DNA of 64,000 nt from assembly GCF_014243345.1 (NCBI RefSeq), contig NZ_JACLZF010000002.1, forward strand, positions 1,426,001 to 1,490,000. Direction: 5' to 3'. Position 1 is the stretch's first letter. Each line of letters starts with the position of its first letter. Both the position numbers and the translations under genes were made by a program. The DNA is from Robiginitalea sp. SC105. Lineage in GTDB: Bacteria > Bacteroidota > Bacteroidia > Flavobacteriales > Flavobacteriaceae. The notes beneath the pieces were generated by a model. That model ran no database searches, had not been told where the DNA came from, and was given only the letters and a program-made list of their open reading frames with translations. Of the stretch, positions 6,598-12,254 are shown piece by piece.

Positions 6598-7647
6598 ATG
6601 ATTATGACGTATTGGAAAATAAGCTTATCCGGGCTACTGCTCGGACTCTTCCTGGGATGTGGCGGGAACGACCCCTCCAGGGATTTTGCCATCGAACTCG
6701 GTGAGGGCGGTAAGAAATTCACGCATAACCAGGAGGTATCCATCGGGCTCCGGAACACGTCCGGGCTTGAAGTGGACTCGGTCCGGTATTTCCTGGACGG
6801 AAGCCCTCTGGCCCTGCAGGATGGCAGGGCGGTGCTGGCATCCCGTACCCTGGGCGAAAAATCGCTGGAGGCCAGGATCCATGCCGGCGGTACCCTTATT
6901 CGCGTCGAAAAAGACTTTGACCTTTTGGCCGAAAAGGCGCCCGAAATCTATACCTACGAGATACTGAATACCTATCCCCACGACCAGGAGGCCTTTACGC
7001 AGGGATTGGAATTCCGGGGGGATACGCTGTATGAAAGCACGGGACAGAGGGGATATTCCAGCCTTCGCAAGGTGGATTACCGGTCCGGGGAGATCCTGGC
7101 ACAAACAGACCTGTCCGACAACTATTTCGGCGAAGGGATCAGCCTGCTCGGGGATACGCTCTACATGCTTACCTGGCAGAGCAAAACGGGCTTCCTGTTC
7201 GATCCGGATACCCTGGAAAAACTCGGCAACTTTGCTTATGGGGAAAGCAAAGAGGGCTGGGGGCTGTGCAACGACGGGCAGGTGCTATACAAGAGCGATG
7301 GCAGCCAGCGGATCTGGAAACTCGACCCCCGGACGCTCCGCGAAATCGGCCATATCGAAACCGTGACCGATAAGTCCGTTTTCAACAAGGCCAATGAACT
7401 CGAATTTGTCAACGGGAAAATCTACGCCAACGTGTGGCAAAAACCGAGCATGATGATTATTGACGCCGCCAGCGGGGCTATTGAGGGCGTGGTCAACTTC
7501 GGGGGGTTGGAAAAAAAAGTAACCCAGCACGACCGCCTGGATGTATTTAACGGGGTAGCCTACCACGCGGGCAGGGGGTCCTTCTTTGTGACGGGCAAGC
7601 GCTGGGACAAACTCTTTGAGGTCCGCATTGTAAAACGCGAGCCATGA
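6598..7647 (+). CDS. Glutaminyl-peptide cyclotransferase (glutamine cyclotransferase family), lipoprotein
   Basis: 349 residues from ATG 6598 (ATG 6604 also fits). A lipoprotein signal ends GLFLGC, so it is exported and lipid-anchored. After an N-terminal accessory region of about 110 residues comes the plant/bacterial-type glutamine cyclotransferase propeller (YPHDQEAFTQGLEF, LYESTGQRGYSSL, EGISLLGDTLYMLTW, KANELEFVNGKIYANVW). The family converts N-terminal Gln of peptides to pyroglutamate, releasing ammonia; unlike the animal enzyme it is a five-bladed propeller. The stop overlaps the start of the thioesterase gene by four bases (ATGA), so the two are translationally coupled. Confidence 0.9.
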   Translation: MIMTYWKISLSGLLLGLFLGCGGNDPSRDFAIELGEGGKKFTHNQEVSIGLRNTSGLEVDSVRYFLDGSPLALQDGRAVLASRTLGEKSLEARIHAGGTLIRVEKDFDLLAEKAPEIYTYEILNTYPHDQEAFTQGLEFRGDTLYESTGQRGYSSLRKVDYRSGEILAQTDLSDNYFGEGISLLGDTLYMLTWQSKTGFLFDPDTLEKLGNFAYGESKEGWGLCNDGQVLYKSDGSQRIWKLDPRTLREIGHIETVTDKSVFNKANELEFVNGKIYANVWQKPSMMIIDAASGAIEGVVNFGGLEKKVTQHDRLDVFNGVAYHAGRGSFFVTGKRWDKLFEVRIVKREP

Positions 7648-8030
7648 GGCGGTATACGAAGCAGATTCAGGTTGTCGAAACCGACCTGGACGAGCTCAAC
7701 CACGTCAACAACATCCGCTACCTGGAGTGGGTGCTCCAAATAGCCGGAGAACATTGGGCAACCCTCACCAGACCGGACTGGGAAGCGTCCTTCATCTGGG
7801 TGGTCAAAAGCCACCATATTTCCTATTTCCGGTCGGCCGTAAAAAATGATGCGCTTGAATTGGAAACCTATGTGGACCAGGCCCGGGGTGCACTTTCACA
7901 CCGCGTCGTGGAGATACGCCTGGCCGGAACGGATACCCGGGTGGCCACCTGTAAAACCGAATGGTGCCTACTCGATAAATCGAGGCTGAAGCCCGTTCGC
8001 ATGCCGGAAGCGATGCTTCAGGCTTTTTAA
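7644..8030 (+). CDS. Hotdog-fold acyl-CoA thioesterase (4HBT family)
   Basis: 128 residues, one hotdog domain. The signature near the N-terminus, ETDLDELNHVNNIRYLEW (12-29), matches the YbgC/4HBT type with Asp and His near the active site. Such enzymes hydrolyse acyl-CoA or acyl-ACP thioesters; the chain preference cannot be seen. Its start overlaps the stop of the cyclotransferase gene by four bases, although the two reactions are unrelated, so the coupling may only reflect compact gene packing. A rho-independent terminator is built into its last codons. Confidence 0.88.
   Translation: MRRYTKQIQVVETDLDELNHVNNIRYLEWVLQIAGEHWATLTRPDWEASFIWVVKSHHISYFRSAVKNDALELETYVDQARGALSHRVVEIRLAGTDTRVATCKTEWCLLDKSRLKPVRMPEAMLQAF
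8003..8028 (+). terminator. Rho-independent terminator overlapping the end of the thioesterase gene
   Basis: GCC (8003-8005) pairs with GGC (8021-8023) and GAAGC (8007-8011, after a G/A mismatch) with GCTTC (8015-8019), loop GAT, followed directly by five T (8024-8028). The hairpin lies wholly inside the coding sequence and the T run supplies part of the stop codon. Confidence 0.6.
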
Positions 8031-8238: not shown

Positions 8239-8970
8239 TTGGAATTTAACTACGGTATTGTCGATCCCAATGCGGCCTCCTTCCTCCAGTTGCAACATTT
8301 CCTGGAGGAATATGAGGGGTTGCAATGTGTTTCCCATGATGCCGAGCCCAGGGATGCCCTCAACAGCATCCTGAAATTCAAACCGGATATCGTTTTTGTC
8401 AACCTCGAAGAGCGGGCGTCCGAAATTTTTGCAATGATCCGGGACATCCACCAATATTTGGAATCCATCCCGGTATATATCGGAATGGCCCAGAGCAGGG
8501 ACCATGCCTATGAGGCGATCAAACACCAGTTTTTTGATTACTGGGTACTGCCATTCTCCGAATTCGAGATCCGCAAAACCCTCTTAAAAGTCGGCAAGCG
8601 TCTACCCAAGCCCGAATCGGCACCGGTTATTTGCCTGCAGTCGTACAAGGATTACCAATTTCTCAACACCAATGAAATCCTCTACCTCAAGGCCGACAAC
8701 AACGCCACGGATTTCATCCTGAAAGACGGTTCCCGGGTCAGCGCCTTTAAGACGCTCAAGAGCTTCGAACAACAATTGCCAGCCAATTTTGTACGCGTCC
8801 ACCAGAGTTACATCCTGAACCGGGACTACATTTCCCGGATCAATTACGGCAAAAGCAGGTTTACCCTGAAGTTTGGAAAAGCAGAATTGCCATTCTCACG
8901 CGGATACCGCCAAAATGTGGATGCACTTAAACAGGCCCTCTCCCTGAAATCCCTGAGCGGGGATAATTGA
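8239..8970 (+). CDS. LytTR DNA-binding regulator with a degenerate receiver domain
   Basis: 243 residues from TTG 8239; no ATG occurs upstream in frame, so a TTG (or ATT) start is needed. Residues 1-120 follow a CheY-like receiver, but key positions have changed: the phospho-acceptor is Asn55 (DIVFVNLEE, where LDIEM is usual), the acidic pair is reduced to VDP, and the conserved Lys before Pro-Phe is Leu (WVLPFSEFE). Phosphorylation is therefore unlikely. Residues about 130-235 are a LytTR domain (LNTNEILYLKADNN, FVRVHQSYILNRDYI) that binds direct repeats on DNA. No kinase gene is adjacent upstream. A 209-base AT-rich gap precedes it. It may read another signal or be constitutive. Confidence 0.88.
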   Translation: MEFNYGIVDPNAASFLQLQHFLEEYEGLQCVSHDAEPRDALNSILKFKPDIVFVNLEERASEIFAMIRDIHQYLESIPVYIGMAQSRDHAYEAIKHQFFDYWVLPFSEFEIRKTLLKVGKRLPKPESAPVICLQSYKDYQFLNTNEILYLKADNNATDFILKDGSRVSAFKTLKSFEQQLPANFVRVHQSYILNRDYISRINYGKSRFTLKFGKAELPFSRGYRQNVDALKQALSLKSLSGDN

Positions 8971-9039
8971 CTGAATTCTCGTACCACCCTGCCGAATACT
9001 AACAGATCCCCACTGCTGGCTAAATGCAGGCTCAAATAA

Positions 9040-9111: not shown

Positions 9112-9375
9112 ATGAAAAAAGTAATGAGTATAGCGGCCGCAATGGTACTTCTATTTGGATTGAGCGCTTGCGAATCCGATTCCGCCCTGGCCGATGTAGA
9201 TGCACTTTATGAAGCTGAGTGTGCCACTTGCGATGATATCGATATGGATGGAGATTCTGAATGCGCCACTTGCGACGACATCGATATGGATGCTGCATGT
9301 GCGACCTGTGACGATATTGATATGGATGCCGAATGTGCGACTTGCGATGATATCGATATGGACGGGGACAATTAA
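9112..9375 (+). CDS. Small lipoprotein with four CATCDDIDMD repeats, unknown function
   Basis: 87 residues. A lipoprotein signal (MKKVMSIAAAMVLLFGLSAC) gives a lipidated Cys20. After a short spacer, the mature part is four copies of CATCDDIDMD with first cysteines at 37, 51, 63 and 75, separated by two to four small or acidic residues. Each unit has a CxxC pair and four Asp, so the protein is extremely acidic and offers eight cysteines. The ten residues are identical in all four units while eight of the ten codons differ synonymously among copies, so the protein sequence is being maintained. Metal binding or a disulfide ladder is conceivable, but no known family is recognised. It lies between the LytTR gene and the TPR kinase, closed by its own terminator. 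Confidence 0.85.
   Translation: MKKVMSIAAAMVLLFGLSACESDSALADVDALYEAECATCDDIDMDGDSECATCDDIDMDAACATCDDIDMDAECATCDDIDMDGDN
9235..9360 (+). repeat. Four in-frame tandem units encoding CATCDDIDMD
   Basis: The units of 30 bases start at about 9220, 9262, 9298 and 9334, with linkers of 12, 6 and 6 bases. The DNA copies differ at third codon positions (TGT/TGC, GCC/GCG, ACT/ACC, GAT/GAC, ATC/ATT) while the encoded residues stay identical. The span given covers the core of the array. Confidence 0.75.
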
Positions 9376-9415: not shown

Positions 9416-9447
9416 GAGCCTTGCGGATAGCAGGGCTCTTTTTTTTA
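9416..9447 (+). terminator. Rho-independent terminator after the repeat lipoprotein
   Basis: GAGCCTTGC (9416-9424) pairs with GCAGGGCTC (9430-9438) through a 9-bp stem with one T-G wobble and a GGATA loop, followed directly by eight T. It should separate the lipoprotein transcript from the kinase gene starting at 9471. Confidence 0.8.
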
Positions 9448-9470: not shown

Positions 9471-11555
9471 ATGAAAATTACGTATCAAATAATTTCCGTT
9501 TTCCTACTGCTGTTATTCCTGACGGGGACATCCTGCCAGCGGACCAGGTCGGGTGCAAAGCGATACACGATACAACAAGAGGGCCTTTCACAGAGGATAA
9601 AGGCCCTGGATCTCGATTCCCTTCCTGATGAAAACAAATCGGGGCAGGTGATTGAAATCATGACAGAACTGGAAGCCACTGCCACAGATACGCTGCCAAG
9701 AAGTTTATTCCTCAGCCTCTTTGATAAAATTGATGCCAAAACCCATACCGCCCTGAAAAGGGAAGCTTATCGGGAAGCCTTAAAAATGGCCGACATGGCT
9801 TCAGATTCCATGGCCATAGGTTCCTTTTTAATCGACCTAAGCCAATTTTACTGGACATTGGGCAGTCCCGACAGTACATTTTTGAGCTCGGAAAGAGCCT
9901 ATAGAATATTCAGTGAATTAGACGATCCGTTTTTGACTGCTCGCAGTGCATACAATTTGGCGGCTGCACAGTTTGCGGCCAGCGATTATTTGCAAGCGGA
10001 ACAAACCGCGATCAATTCTTTGACTTCCCTGGAAGCGTCCACAAACGAGAATAAGGCACCCCGCTTCATTGCCACCTATAATCTGCTGGGTTCCATTGCC
10101 TCAAAACTCAATGCCTTTGATCGTGCCATTGAATATCGGGAAACAGCCCTGGAATATCTTTCACCAGACGAAATGGATAGCAGGGCATATTACCAAATAA
10201 TGAACAACCTGGGGAATACCCAGATCGAAGCAGGAGCCTATAAAGACGCCTTGAATTCTTTGGAAAAAGTAGCAGGCAATACCCAGTTAAAGGAAGACAA
10301 CCCCCACCTGTATGCGATGGCGATCCTAAACCGGGGGCGGGCTAATTTTGCACTCGGCAACCTGGAAGCCGTGGAGGAAGACTACCGGGAAGCCCTTGAA
10401 ATCAGGGAAGCGTTGAATGAAACACGCAACCTGCCCCGGAGCTATTACTACCTGGCCGAATATTTCTGGTCCCGGCAGGATACCTCCCAGGCAAAGGACT
10501 TCTTAAAAAAAGGTAAGGAAATTGCCCTCGAAACCGAAGAGCTCGATGGGCTCCAGGATATCCTGAAGCTCCAGATGCTGGTCGACCGTGATAACGGCGC
10601 CCAATACGGCCTGGAACTCAGTGAACTCAAGGACAGCCTGATACAGGAGGAGCGCAGTCTGCGGGACAAGTTTGCCAGGGTCCGTTACCAAACGGACCAG
10701 TATATTGCCGAAAACCAATTCCTCTCCCGGCAGCGGATGATCTGGATCTGGATTGCCATAGGGGTGTTGCTCCTGGGGGTCGCCCTTTTTATTATCATCG
10801 ACCAGCAGATACGCAACCAGAAACTCCGTTTCCTCCAGCAGCAGCAGGAGGCCAATCAGGAAATCTTCAACCTGATGCTCACCCAGAACGAGAAAATCGA
10901 GGAAGGCAAACAGGAAGAGCAAAAACGGATCTCGGAAGAGCTTCACGATGGGGTGCTGGGCGAAATGAATGGAATCCGGATGGTCCTGCTGGGCCTGAAT
11001 GGCAAGGAAGATGAAAATTCCGTGGCCCTGCGGGCACAGGCCATTGAAAAGCTGAAGAATGTACAGGAGGAAATCCGCGGGATTTCACACGCCCTCAGCC
11101 ATGCCGCCTATCAGAAATTCTCTAACTTTATCGTATCCATTGAAGACCTGCTGCAGAATACGGCCGGGGCGGCCAACCTGGAGTATGACCTGGAATACGA
11201 TCAGGAAGCCGATTGGGATGGTGTTTCCGGGGAGTTGAAGATCAACCTGTACCGGATTATACAGGAATGCCTTCAAAATACCATCAAACACGCCCGGGCC
11301 ACCCGTGTAACAGTAGAGCTTGGGGCTACCTGCGAATCCCTTGAGGCCCGGATACGGGATAACGGTCGGGGTTTTCAGAAGCGCCGTGGAAAACGCGGGA
11401 TCGGACAAAAGAATATCACCTCCCGGGTACAAAGGCTCGGAGGGAAATGGGAAATTGAATCCGCCCCGGGGTCGGGGACTGAAATCTGGGTGCAGTTCCC
11501 CAGGCGCCAAACCCTTGTGGATACCCCACCGGAGGTACTGGAAGGATCGGTTTAA
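9471..11555 (+). CDS. TPR-containing sensor histidine kinase (HisKA_3 / NarL-type)
   Basis: 694 residues from ATG 9471; an upstream in-frame start at 9387 is rejected because it crosses the terminator. The N-terminus is a signal peptide ending GTSC that looks like a lipobox. Residues about 60-400 are helical TPR-like repeats (for example RAYRIFSELDDPFLTARSAY, YYQIMNNLGNTQIEAGAYKD) and should be periplasmic. A membrane helix lies at about 423-447 (IWIAIGVLLLGVALFIII). The cytoplasmic part has the HisKA_3 box with His492 (RISEELHDGVLG), the N box with Asn603 (ECLQNTIKHA), then DNGRGF and a G2 region GIGQKNI. This is a complete kinase, very likely paired with the response regulator 30 bases downstream. 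Confidence 0.92.
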   Translation: MKITYQIISVFLLLLFLTGTSCQRTRSGAKRYTIQQEGLSQRIKALDLDSLPDENKSGQVIEIMTELEATATDTLPRSLFLSLFDKIDAKTHTALKREAYREALKMADMASDSMAIGSFLIDLSQFYWTLGSPDSTFLSSERAYRIFSELDDPFLTARSAYNLAAAQFAASDYLQAEQTAINSLTSLEASTNENKAPRFIATYNLLGSIASKLNAFDRAIEYRETALEYLSPDEMDSRAYYQIMNNLGNTQIEAGAYKDALNSLEKVAGNTQLKEDNPHLYAMAILNRGRANFALGNLEAVEEDYREALEIREALNETRNLPRSYYYLAEYFWSRQDTSQAKDFLKKGKEIALETEELDGLQDILKLQMLVDRDNGAQYGLELSELKDSLIQEERSLRDKFARVRYQTDQYIAENQFLSRQRMIWIWIAIGVLLLGVALFIIIDQQIRNQKLRFLQQQQEANQEIFNLMLTQNEKIEEGKQEEQKRISEELHDGVLGEMNGIRMVLLGLNGKEDENSVALRAQAIEKLKNVQEEIRGISHALSHAAYQKFSNFIVSIEDLLQNTAGAANLEYDLEYDQEADWDGVSGELKINLYRIIQECLQNTIKHARATRVTVELGATCESLEARIRDNGRGFQKRRGKRGIGQKNITSRVQRLGGKWEIESAPGSGTEIWVQFPRRQTLVDTPPEVLEGSV

Positions 11556-11585: not shown

Positions 11586-12254
11586 ATGAATATCGTGCGC
11601 ATACTGGCCGTAGACGACCATGAAATGACGACCCTGGGATACAAATTTATCCTGGAGGACAGTGAATTTGATGGCTTCAAGGTCCACGTGGATTCGGCCA
11701 AGACCTTTGAAGAAGCTTCCGAAAAAATCCGGCAATCAGTCAAACGCCTCCCCTATCACATACTCCTGCTGGACATCCAGCTTTCCAGTAACACGGAGCA
11801 CAGGGGAAAAACCGGTGAGGATGTGGGCATCCTCGCCCGGGAAGTCAGTCCCGAATCAAAGATTGTGTTTATGTCGTCTTTCAGCGATAACTACCGGATC
11901 AACAGCATCATGCAGACGGTCGACCCGGAAGGGTACATGGTCAAATCCGAGATCGATGAGGCCTCCCTCCGGGCCATGGTAAACACGGTTACTACCAATC
12001 CGCCCTATTACACCCAGAAAGCGCTGGCAGCCATCCGGAAAAAAATGGCCAACTCGATCAACCTGGATGAGAATGACAAGAAAATCCTGTACCATCTTTC
12101 CATCGGGACAAAGACCAAGGATATGGTGAACCATATATCCCTCTCCCTCCCAACCATCGAAAACCGGAAGCGGCATATAAAGTCACTTTTTGGTATCGAA
12201 AAACAGAATGATCAGGCCCTGATCTCCGAAGCCAGGGAACGGGGCTTTATCTGA
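11586..12254 (+). CDS. Response regulator with receiver and LuxR-like HTH
   Basis: 222 residues. The receiver (about 1-130) has the acidic pair Asp10-Asp11 and phospho-acceptor Asp63 in HILLLDIQL, so it should be phosphorylated, unlike the LytTR regulator of this cluster. A longer than usual loop (SSNTEHRGKTGEDVG) follows the acceptor. The C-terminal part (about 155-222) has a LuxR/NarL-type helix-turn-helix (ILYHLSIGTKTKDMVNHISL, then SLPTIENRKRHIKSLFG). The gene follows the TPR kinase by 30 bases on the same strand, the usual arrangement of HisKA_3 kinases with NarL-type regulators. Targets cannot be seen. Confidence 0.9.
   Translation: MNIVRILAVDDHEMTTLGYKFILEDSEFDGFKVHVDSAKTFEEASEKIRQSVKRLPYHILLLDIQLSSNTEHRGKTGEDVGILAREVSPESKIVFMSSFSDNYRINSIMQTVDPEGYMVKSEIDEASLRAMVNTVTTNPPYYTQKALAAIRKKMANSINLDENDKKILYHLSIGTKTKDMVNHISLSLPTIENRKRHIKSLFGIEKQNDQALISEARERGFI

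Follow-up and report, generated by a model that had tools for sequence, protein, structure and literature searches.

Robiginitalea sp. SC105, a member of the Flavobacteriaceae, carries a small peptide gene between a LytTR-type regulator and a sensor histidine kinase. The window, by which we mean the whole stretch of 64,000 nucleotides that was analysed (assembly GCF_014243345.1, contig NZ_JACLZF010000002.1, positions 1,426,001 to 1,490,000), holds the following features, numbered from its first letter.

7644..8030, plus strand: 4HBT thioesterase, syntenic upstream neighbour (Pfam 4HBT_2, 1.4e-11)
8239..8970, plus strand: LytTR-type regulator, 243 aa, TTG start (Pfam LytTR, E 5.7e-18; Response_reg, E 0.0073, below cut-off)
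8971..9024, plus strand: three direct repeats in the peptide promoter, period 21 bp, beginning where LytTR stops; likely sites for LytTR binding (motif search)
9112..9375, plus strand: peptide precursor lipoprotein, 87 aa (open reading frame with ATG start; orthologues at the loci of relatives)
9112..9171, plus strand: leader with lipobox Cys, residues 1-20 (sequence; alignments of relatives)
9220..9249, plus strand: unit 1, CATCDDIDMD, residues 37-46
9262..9291, plus strand: unit 2, CATCDDIDMD, residues 51-60
9298..9327, plus strand: unit 3, CATCDDIDMD, residues 63-72
9334..9363, plus strand: unit 4, CATCDDIDMD, residues 75-84
9416..9447, plus strand: terminator-like hairpin and T run, 3' of the peptide gene (by eye)
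9471..11555, plus strand: sensor histidine kinase, 694 aa, candidate receptor (Pfam TPR_12, 5.4e-16; HisKA_3, 3.9e-05; HATPase_c, 3.1e-12)
11586..12254, plus strand: response regulator, 222 aa, NarL/MctR-like (NCBIfam RespRegMctR, E 4.7e-14; Pfam Response_reg, E 4.5e-05; both below cut-off)

The gene order is thus LytTR regulator, peptide, TPR-sensor histidine kinase and response regulator, the last being the kinase's partner as judged by position.

Conservation and spread of the locus

The locus is conserved well beyond the window. The best 80 of 338 LytTR matches in an alignment scan came from Robiginitalea, Maribacter, Arenibacter, Zobellia, Cellulophaga, Muriicola, Eudoraea and others, and in 79 of these 80 a small secreted peptide gene directly follows the orthologous LytTR gene, starting 132-179 bp past the LytTR match; the 80th stretch (L030) ends early. 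A TPR kinase lies downstream in 73 of the 79 loci, the other six being five stretches that end too soon and L045, where the kinase gave no tblastn match though a TPR-kinase-like ORF begins at +425. The response regulator was found in 67 of the 79 (41-80% identical) and the 4HBT thioesterase in 71, at varying distance; the latter probably stands outside the system. Among a further 39 stretches, chosen from LytTR places in a survey of the family and overlapping with the 80-locus set (some are identical with named loci), the peptide is present in 36, including beside LytTRs that are only 36-50% identical; the 118 LytTRs comprise 111 distinct ones. The regulator is present at E 1e-60 in 78 of 299 genomes drawn from the family, and when 246 genomes were drawn from the order, the ten that matched at 1e-50 were all Flavobacteriaceae.

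The window genome has a single copy of the peptide gene, and three genomes listed as the same genus (G001, G005 and G008) matched neither the peptide nor the promoter motif. In three loci with distant LytTRs (L133, L135 and L138) a peptide gene of this kind was not seen; the next secreted ORF of L133, from +417, is long and TPR-kinase-like, and in L138 a response regulator comes after the LytTR gene. In the genome G064, two LytTR genes of this type lie side by side (the second is L149), with peptide and promoter repeats after only one of them. A mobile element was also considered and was set aside, as a plasmid collection gave no match.

A precursor of four identical units

The window precursor has a leader that is lipoprotein-type by sequence and ends LSAC at Cys20, followed by an acidic linker and by units that start at residues 37, 51, 63 and 75 (spacing 14, 12 and 12). 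A preliminary description of this DNA had reported an 87-residue lipoprotein with four identical CATCDDIDMD units, eight of whose ten codons vary by synonymous changes only, and had taken this as a mark of selection for the peptide. Reading of the ORF and comparison of the codons agree with the first two points: eight of the ten codon columns vary, every change is synonymous and nonsynonymous changes number zero. Of 60 unit-pair positions, 26 have different codons, where random local codon choice would give 27.3 (ratio 0.95), and the same ratio for LytTR against five relatives is 0.83-0.99. Since the unit codons are at random-choice saturation, the units are old copies held constant rather than a fresh duplication, and recent duplication of this DNA is ruled out. 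The spacers (GDSE, AA and AE) and the end (GDN) provide an internal contrast to the units, varying in both residue and length. When the window was compared with G002, a given unit was no nearer to the unit of the same rank than to shifted units.

The third point, selection for the peptide, is borne out across relatives. Adjacent units of 31 repeat genes, compared by period with spacers included and restricted to stretches whose local identity is 50% or more, have a pN of 0.029 against a pS of 0.366 (pooled pN/pS 0.08); an earlier pooled pN of 0.011 from 23 genes was biased low by typed unit patterns. Purifying selection acts on the likeness of the units. Degenerate units in homologues, which the preliminary description had set against its own proposal, do occur in part: 10 of 23 repeat genes have matched units that differ in one residue or more (e.g. 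in the last unit of L004), and in the other 13 the matched units are fully identical. Each lineage thus repeats a word of its own and holds the copies alike, with a few exceptions such as that last unit of L004. Frameshifts, which had been named together with degenerate units, were absent from the peptide genes extracted from the loci of relatives.

The view that no known family is like this one also stood up to searching. The window protein falls below every curated cut-off in Pfam and NCBIfam; the best values for 19 relatives were E 0.0039 (Pfam) and 3.1e-05 (NCBIfam, PG1828, leader only), for four proteins against PHROGs E 0.0016, and in a PDB search E 1. A zinc ribbon (Pfam DZR_2, E 0.052) and cytochrome-like matches were rejected as below cut-off, as was the PG1828 family lipoprotein (NCBIfam NF050142), a leader-only match. 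Fifteen of 20 scanned members of the present peptide family match PG1828 weakly, by the leader, and of five scanned singly four matched, over the N-terminal 27-37 residues only and with 15.6-21.2 bits against a cut-off of 50. We found no description of the peptide family in Flavobacteriaceae or Bacteroidota in open-licence papers, and the available sections of PMC8895600, consulted for Bacteroidetes and LytTR, contain nothing on it.

The promoter and the LytTR regulator

The promoter of the peptide gene is conserved as well. A motif search in 82 upstream regions reached 43.3 bits against 11.6 in two shuffled sets. Because the motif sampler forces one site per sequence, left-one-out scoring was used as a check, and it gave at least 14.5 bits in all 82 promoters (median 43.8, window 30.7), the best of 1640 shuffled sequences scoring 3.9. 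A second copy of the motif above 12 bits was found neither in those loci nor in the window. Within the window genome the peptide promoter (27.5 bits) is the sole strong site, the runner-up having 12.2 bits, and among 60 genomes, this one included, 11 carry a single site each with an E-value of 1.2e-5 or lower, the next value being 7e-4. Ten of these 11 sites sit just 5' of the peptide gene and the eleventh (G027) adjoins its LytTR match. A -7-like box, TAnTTTRG, is present in 57 of the 82 promoters (shuffled mean 1.1) and is absent from that of the window.

Direct repeats spaced by about two turns of the helix are what LytTR proteins bind, and the triple 21-bp repeats are therefore probably LytTR sites; we infer that the regulator encoded just upstream probably binds the triple repeats of the peptide promoter. 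The phospho-site column of its receiver-like domain has Asn in 86 of 111 orthologues and Asp in nine. Since Asn mostly replaces the phospho-Asp, activation of the regulator is probably independent of ordinary phosphorylation.

LytTR regulators often control bacteriocins, and an architecture of several C-terminal cores resembles that of RiPP precursors, so the gene could be read as a multi-core RiPP precursor that yields a bacteriocin or metallophore rather than a signal. We consider this very improbable: a peptide-modifying enzyme or transporter is absent between the LytTR gene and the response regulator of the window, the search for a modification enzyme being equally negative from the thioesterase to the response regulator, and a Sec/lipoprotein leader is atypical for RiPP precursors.

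Tails of the peptide across relatives

In relatives, the leader is conserved and is followed by a short linker that often ends ALYE or similar; from there on the tails diverge by genus. Robiginitalea uses the words CATCDDIDMD, CTTCNDIDID, CTTCDDVDPE and CTDCTDVDED, some Maribacter CDDCAHDKDRRE, Arenibacter ATDGDNIPKERRDPPP, Zobellia russellii VDGDDVPTDRRG, Lentiprolixibacter TDGDDIPVSERE and Cellulophaga ATDDDEVEAPKGSGG. These tails are acidic and have either CxxC or TxxD in roughly corresponding positions, and in an alignment of short tails made partly by eye many share [TC]-D-x-[DC], CxxC standing where others have TDGD; proline, arginine or glycine is abundant in other tails. The unit is single in many genomes and present in two to eight copies in others. 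The tandem state has changed repeatedly: on a LytTR tree of 111 loci we count at least 13 changes in repeat state, at least 10 in CxxC and at least five in the lipobox, gains and losses being pooled and the tree a quick one (the labels of L016, L085 and L086 come from incomplete peptides, and the L064 peptide has a masked stretch).

Precursors of the Arenibacter type (L050, L077, L080, L095 and L152) have 202-230 residues with six to seven copies of a 28-residue period and are the longest in the family among the loci studied here. The distant locus L136 has repeats of TDGEDDLPG type after a longer gap of 313 bp before the peptide, and these are probably another independent amplification.

The Asp-rich units (DxDxD) and the CxxC motifs invite a reading in which the tail binds calcium or soft metals in the periplasm, as a buffer or sensor that reports to the kinase, and metal capture or redox chemistry had been among the guesses of the preliminary description. 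CxxC is found in 34 of the 111 tails, which lends this some support, yet TxxD takes its place at about the same position, other tails have the proline-, arginine- or glycine-rich composition noted above, the window protein lacks a match above cut-off to a metal-binding family, and binding of metal would not need identical units. A metal role of this kind thus seems distinctly unlikely. As the core function, metal capture or redox through CxxC was not supported by the comparison, given that the motif is limited to those 34 tails and has changed state at least 10 times. Loss of the cysteines in close relatives, which had been set beforehand as evidence against the proposal, is found in Robiginitalea marina (L018), which has neither tail cysteines nor repeats. 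A thiol-based metal-binding or redox peptide was accordingly set aside, the cysteines not being conserved and CxxC being exchanged with TxxD.

A hypervariable block of tail and sensor

The peptide tail and the TPR sensor of the kinase form a hypervariable block between a better conserved LytTR regulator, leader and kinase. Between L060 and L070, identity is 99.2% in LytTR, 91% in the leader, 39% in the tail, 54.7% in the TPR sensor and 94.2% in the kinase; at the DNA level, LytTR and promoter reach 91-100%, the stretch that begins with the tail and takes in most of the sensor 47-73%, the kinase and what follows it 77-97%, and the DNA upstream of LytTR 65-91%. Close pairs follow the same course, identity dropping at the peptide tail, staying low in the sensor and recovering toward the transmembrane helix and kinase. 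From 48 close pairs we took 11 disjoint ones with sensor and kinase values: the sensor is less identical than the kinase in all 11 (p 0.001) and the tail less identical than the leader in nine (p 0.007).

The picture has exceptions. The valleys of L083-L084 (68-85%) and L050-L080 (64-79%) are shallower, the dip of L069-L087 spans no more than the intergenic DNA and the first part of the sensor, and the DNA upstream of LytTR dips too, to 65-68%, in L060-L070 and L069-L087. In L031-L034 a sensor of 57% identity goes with a tail of 93%. Members of Robiginitalea conserve the tail (61-83%) to much the same degree as the leader (47-74%), or even better, and between the window and G002 the sensor is 62%, the kinase 83% and the response regulator 91% identical.

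The ratio of sensor to kinase divergence is 3.3-11.4 at this locus (four pairs) against 1.3-2.9 for other kinases of the same species pairs, whose sensors are not necessarily TPR and for which 10 of 18 rows were used. The rows left out were L182, L186 and L188-L192, with a kinase identity below 0.5 and taken as non-orthologous, and L193-L199 (0.36/0.76), whose ratio of 2.7, by hand, is within the control range. Synonymous divergence, too, is higher in tail or sensor for several of the 16 pairs compared, which is what an exchange of old alleles would produce; the pN/pS of the tail exceeds 1 in only one of the 16.

Three finer tests gave no support for a detailed coevolution of ligand and sensor. 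In a partial Mantel test over all depths, tail distance did not follow TPR distance once kinase and LytTR distance were removed (r 0.05, p 0.085), though it did follow that of the kinase (p 0.0005) and of LytTR (p 0.001); this test used 70 kinases, of which those of L083 and probably L084, L075 and L090 are N-terminally shortened. Tail and TPR divergence were uncorrelated in the 11 close pairs (Spearman 0.20, p 0.56), and the inner TPR helices were not enriched for variation (0.288, versus 0.323 in the outer ones).

Tails that differ between species whose LytTRs are 99% identical would also fit a displayed surface tag, diversifying to escape phages or predators while the kinase sensor diversifies for a separate reason; lipoproteins of this phylum can be surface-exposed, according to the available part of PMC5080379. 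So small and acidic a peptide, encoded next to a regulator and kinase of its own, would be an unusual coat, however, its units stay alike within a genome, and the sensor diverges in the same block as the tail, so that we give this explanation little credence.

The TPR sensor of the kinase

The kinase has a lipoprotein-like N-terminus, a TPR sensor at about residues 25-420, one transmembrane helix at about 425-445 (by eye) and the HisKA_3 and HATPase_c domains. On this topology, read by eye, the sensor is predicted to be periplasmic. Its AlphaFold2 model is a confident all-helical TPR superhelix (pLDDT 91.2, pTM 0.85), and most of the best PDB matches of this model in Foldseek are TPR complexes of LGN or Pins bound to a peptide partner. 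The first 50 matches include Rap proteins (e.g. 8rsv, 6t46 and 4gyo), several of them with pheromone bound. The model also matches many unrelated TPR proteins. TPR folds resemble one another, and the matches therefore point only to a type that often binds peptides.

A proposed peptide signal precursor

We consider it somewhat more probable than otherwise that the window gene encodes a multi-copy precursor of a peptide signal, controlled by LytTR and probably sensed by the neighbouring kinase. The neighbouring LytTR regulator would activate the peptide gene through the three direct repeats, and the precursor would be exported and, in most lineages, lipidated. Beyond the inner membrane its acidic C-terminal units would then present one short peptide in several copies, either still anchored or set free by proteolysis, and the predicted periplasmic TPR superhelix of the next-door kinase would recognise them there. 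The kinase, in turn, would signal through the adjacent response regulator.

The main rival, which we regard as unlikely, is a cell-autonomous accessory: a lipoprotein anchored on its own cell that binds the TPR sensor as a co-regulator, for instance as a gauge of lipoprotein export or of the state of the envelope, with repeats for avidity and neither a released peptide nor a signal between cells. It shares the evidence of locus and cassette with the signal reading, and the lipoprotein leader is conserved, with a lipobox in 80 of 111 precursors. The lipobox is nevertheless missing in most Maribacter and Arenibacter, and many of these clades keep the repeats, so that anchoring looks dispensable. 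Moreover, allele-like hypervariability is more usual for exchanged signals.

Returning to the signal precursor, the locus may be compared with known peptide systems. In ComQXPA and agr, conserved flanks enclose a polymorphic block made up of ligand and sensor, and agr includes a LytTR regulator. The same arrangement is seen here, with a pre-peptide beside a membrane histidine kinase and a response regulator in one locus, and with the polymorphic block of ligand and sensor apparent between close species, with exceptions; as in known pheromone/receptor cassettes, TPR sensor and peptide tail are more diverged than kinase and leader. Unlike those systems, no dedicated peptide-modifying enzyme (ComQ, AgrB) lies beside the gene, only thioesterase, LytTR, kinase and response regulator being found around it in the window; the sensor is a TPR domain with one transmembrane helix; and, unlike in agr, LytTR lies upstream and mostly lacks the phospho-Asp. 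Polymorphic peptide-kinase loci are described for ComQXPA in the available parts of PMC4008528 and PMC4408185.

The Rap-Phr (RRNPPA) systems of Bacillota have tandemly duplicated pheromone propeptides and TPR receptors, with a variable copy number for which up to 8 is mentioned in the sections available (PMC11343458). The likeness to that account lies in a small precursor that is exported and holds several short peptides, identical or nearly so, in variable copy number, next to a TPR protein as receptor; here the candidate is the kinase sensor, whose model matches Rap structures, and the peptide lies 5' of the TPR kinase in the 73 of 79 loci given above, a receptor role for this kinase being presumed. 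Rap is cytoplasmic and its peptide is imported, whereas the TPR part here follows a signal- or lipoprotein-like N-terminus, precedes the transmembrane helix and kinase (topology by eye) and is predicted to lie in the periplasm as part of a histidine kinase. A further difference is the leader, usually lipoprotein-type; the hosts are Flavobacteriaceae, and no sequence relation to Rap-Phr emerged. With some defining features of Rap-Phr and ComQXPA/agr present and others lacking, the locus would work like these systems and not be a member of them.

Most of what is known of peptide quorum sensing concerns Gram-positive bacteria. The Flavobacteriaceae, which are Gram-negative and include many marine polysaccharide degraders, may have peptide cell-cell signalling of their own, a counterpart of agr, ComQXPA and Rap-Phr in which LytTR drives Sec-exported precursors, their species-specific words are read by a periplasmic TPR kinase, units have been amplified in tandem independently many times, and ligand and sensor are exchanged together as alleles; we find this broader proposal plausible, if slightly more doubtful than probable. 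The evidence suggests that the peptide family and the kinase make up a so far undescribed peptide signalling system of this bacterial group. If so, a conserved peptide-sensor module would give Flavobacteriaceae a species-specific communication code, a ligand could be assigned to a group of TPR sensor kinases without known input, and its sequence could be predicted for each species and be open to tests with synthetic peptides. FimS, for which we know of no linked peptide gene, is a sensor kinase that likewise has a TPR part, and the FimS-type TPR sensor kinases of Bacteroidota (NCBIfam NF053520) gave a weak match, below cut-off, at E 7.3e-06.
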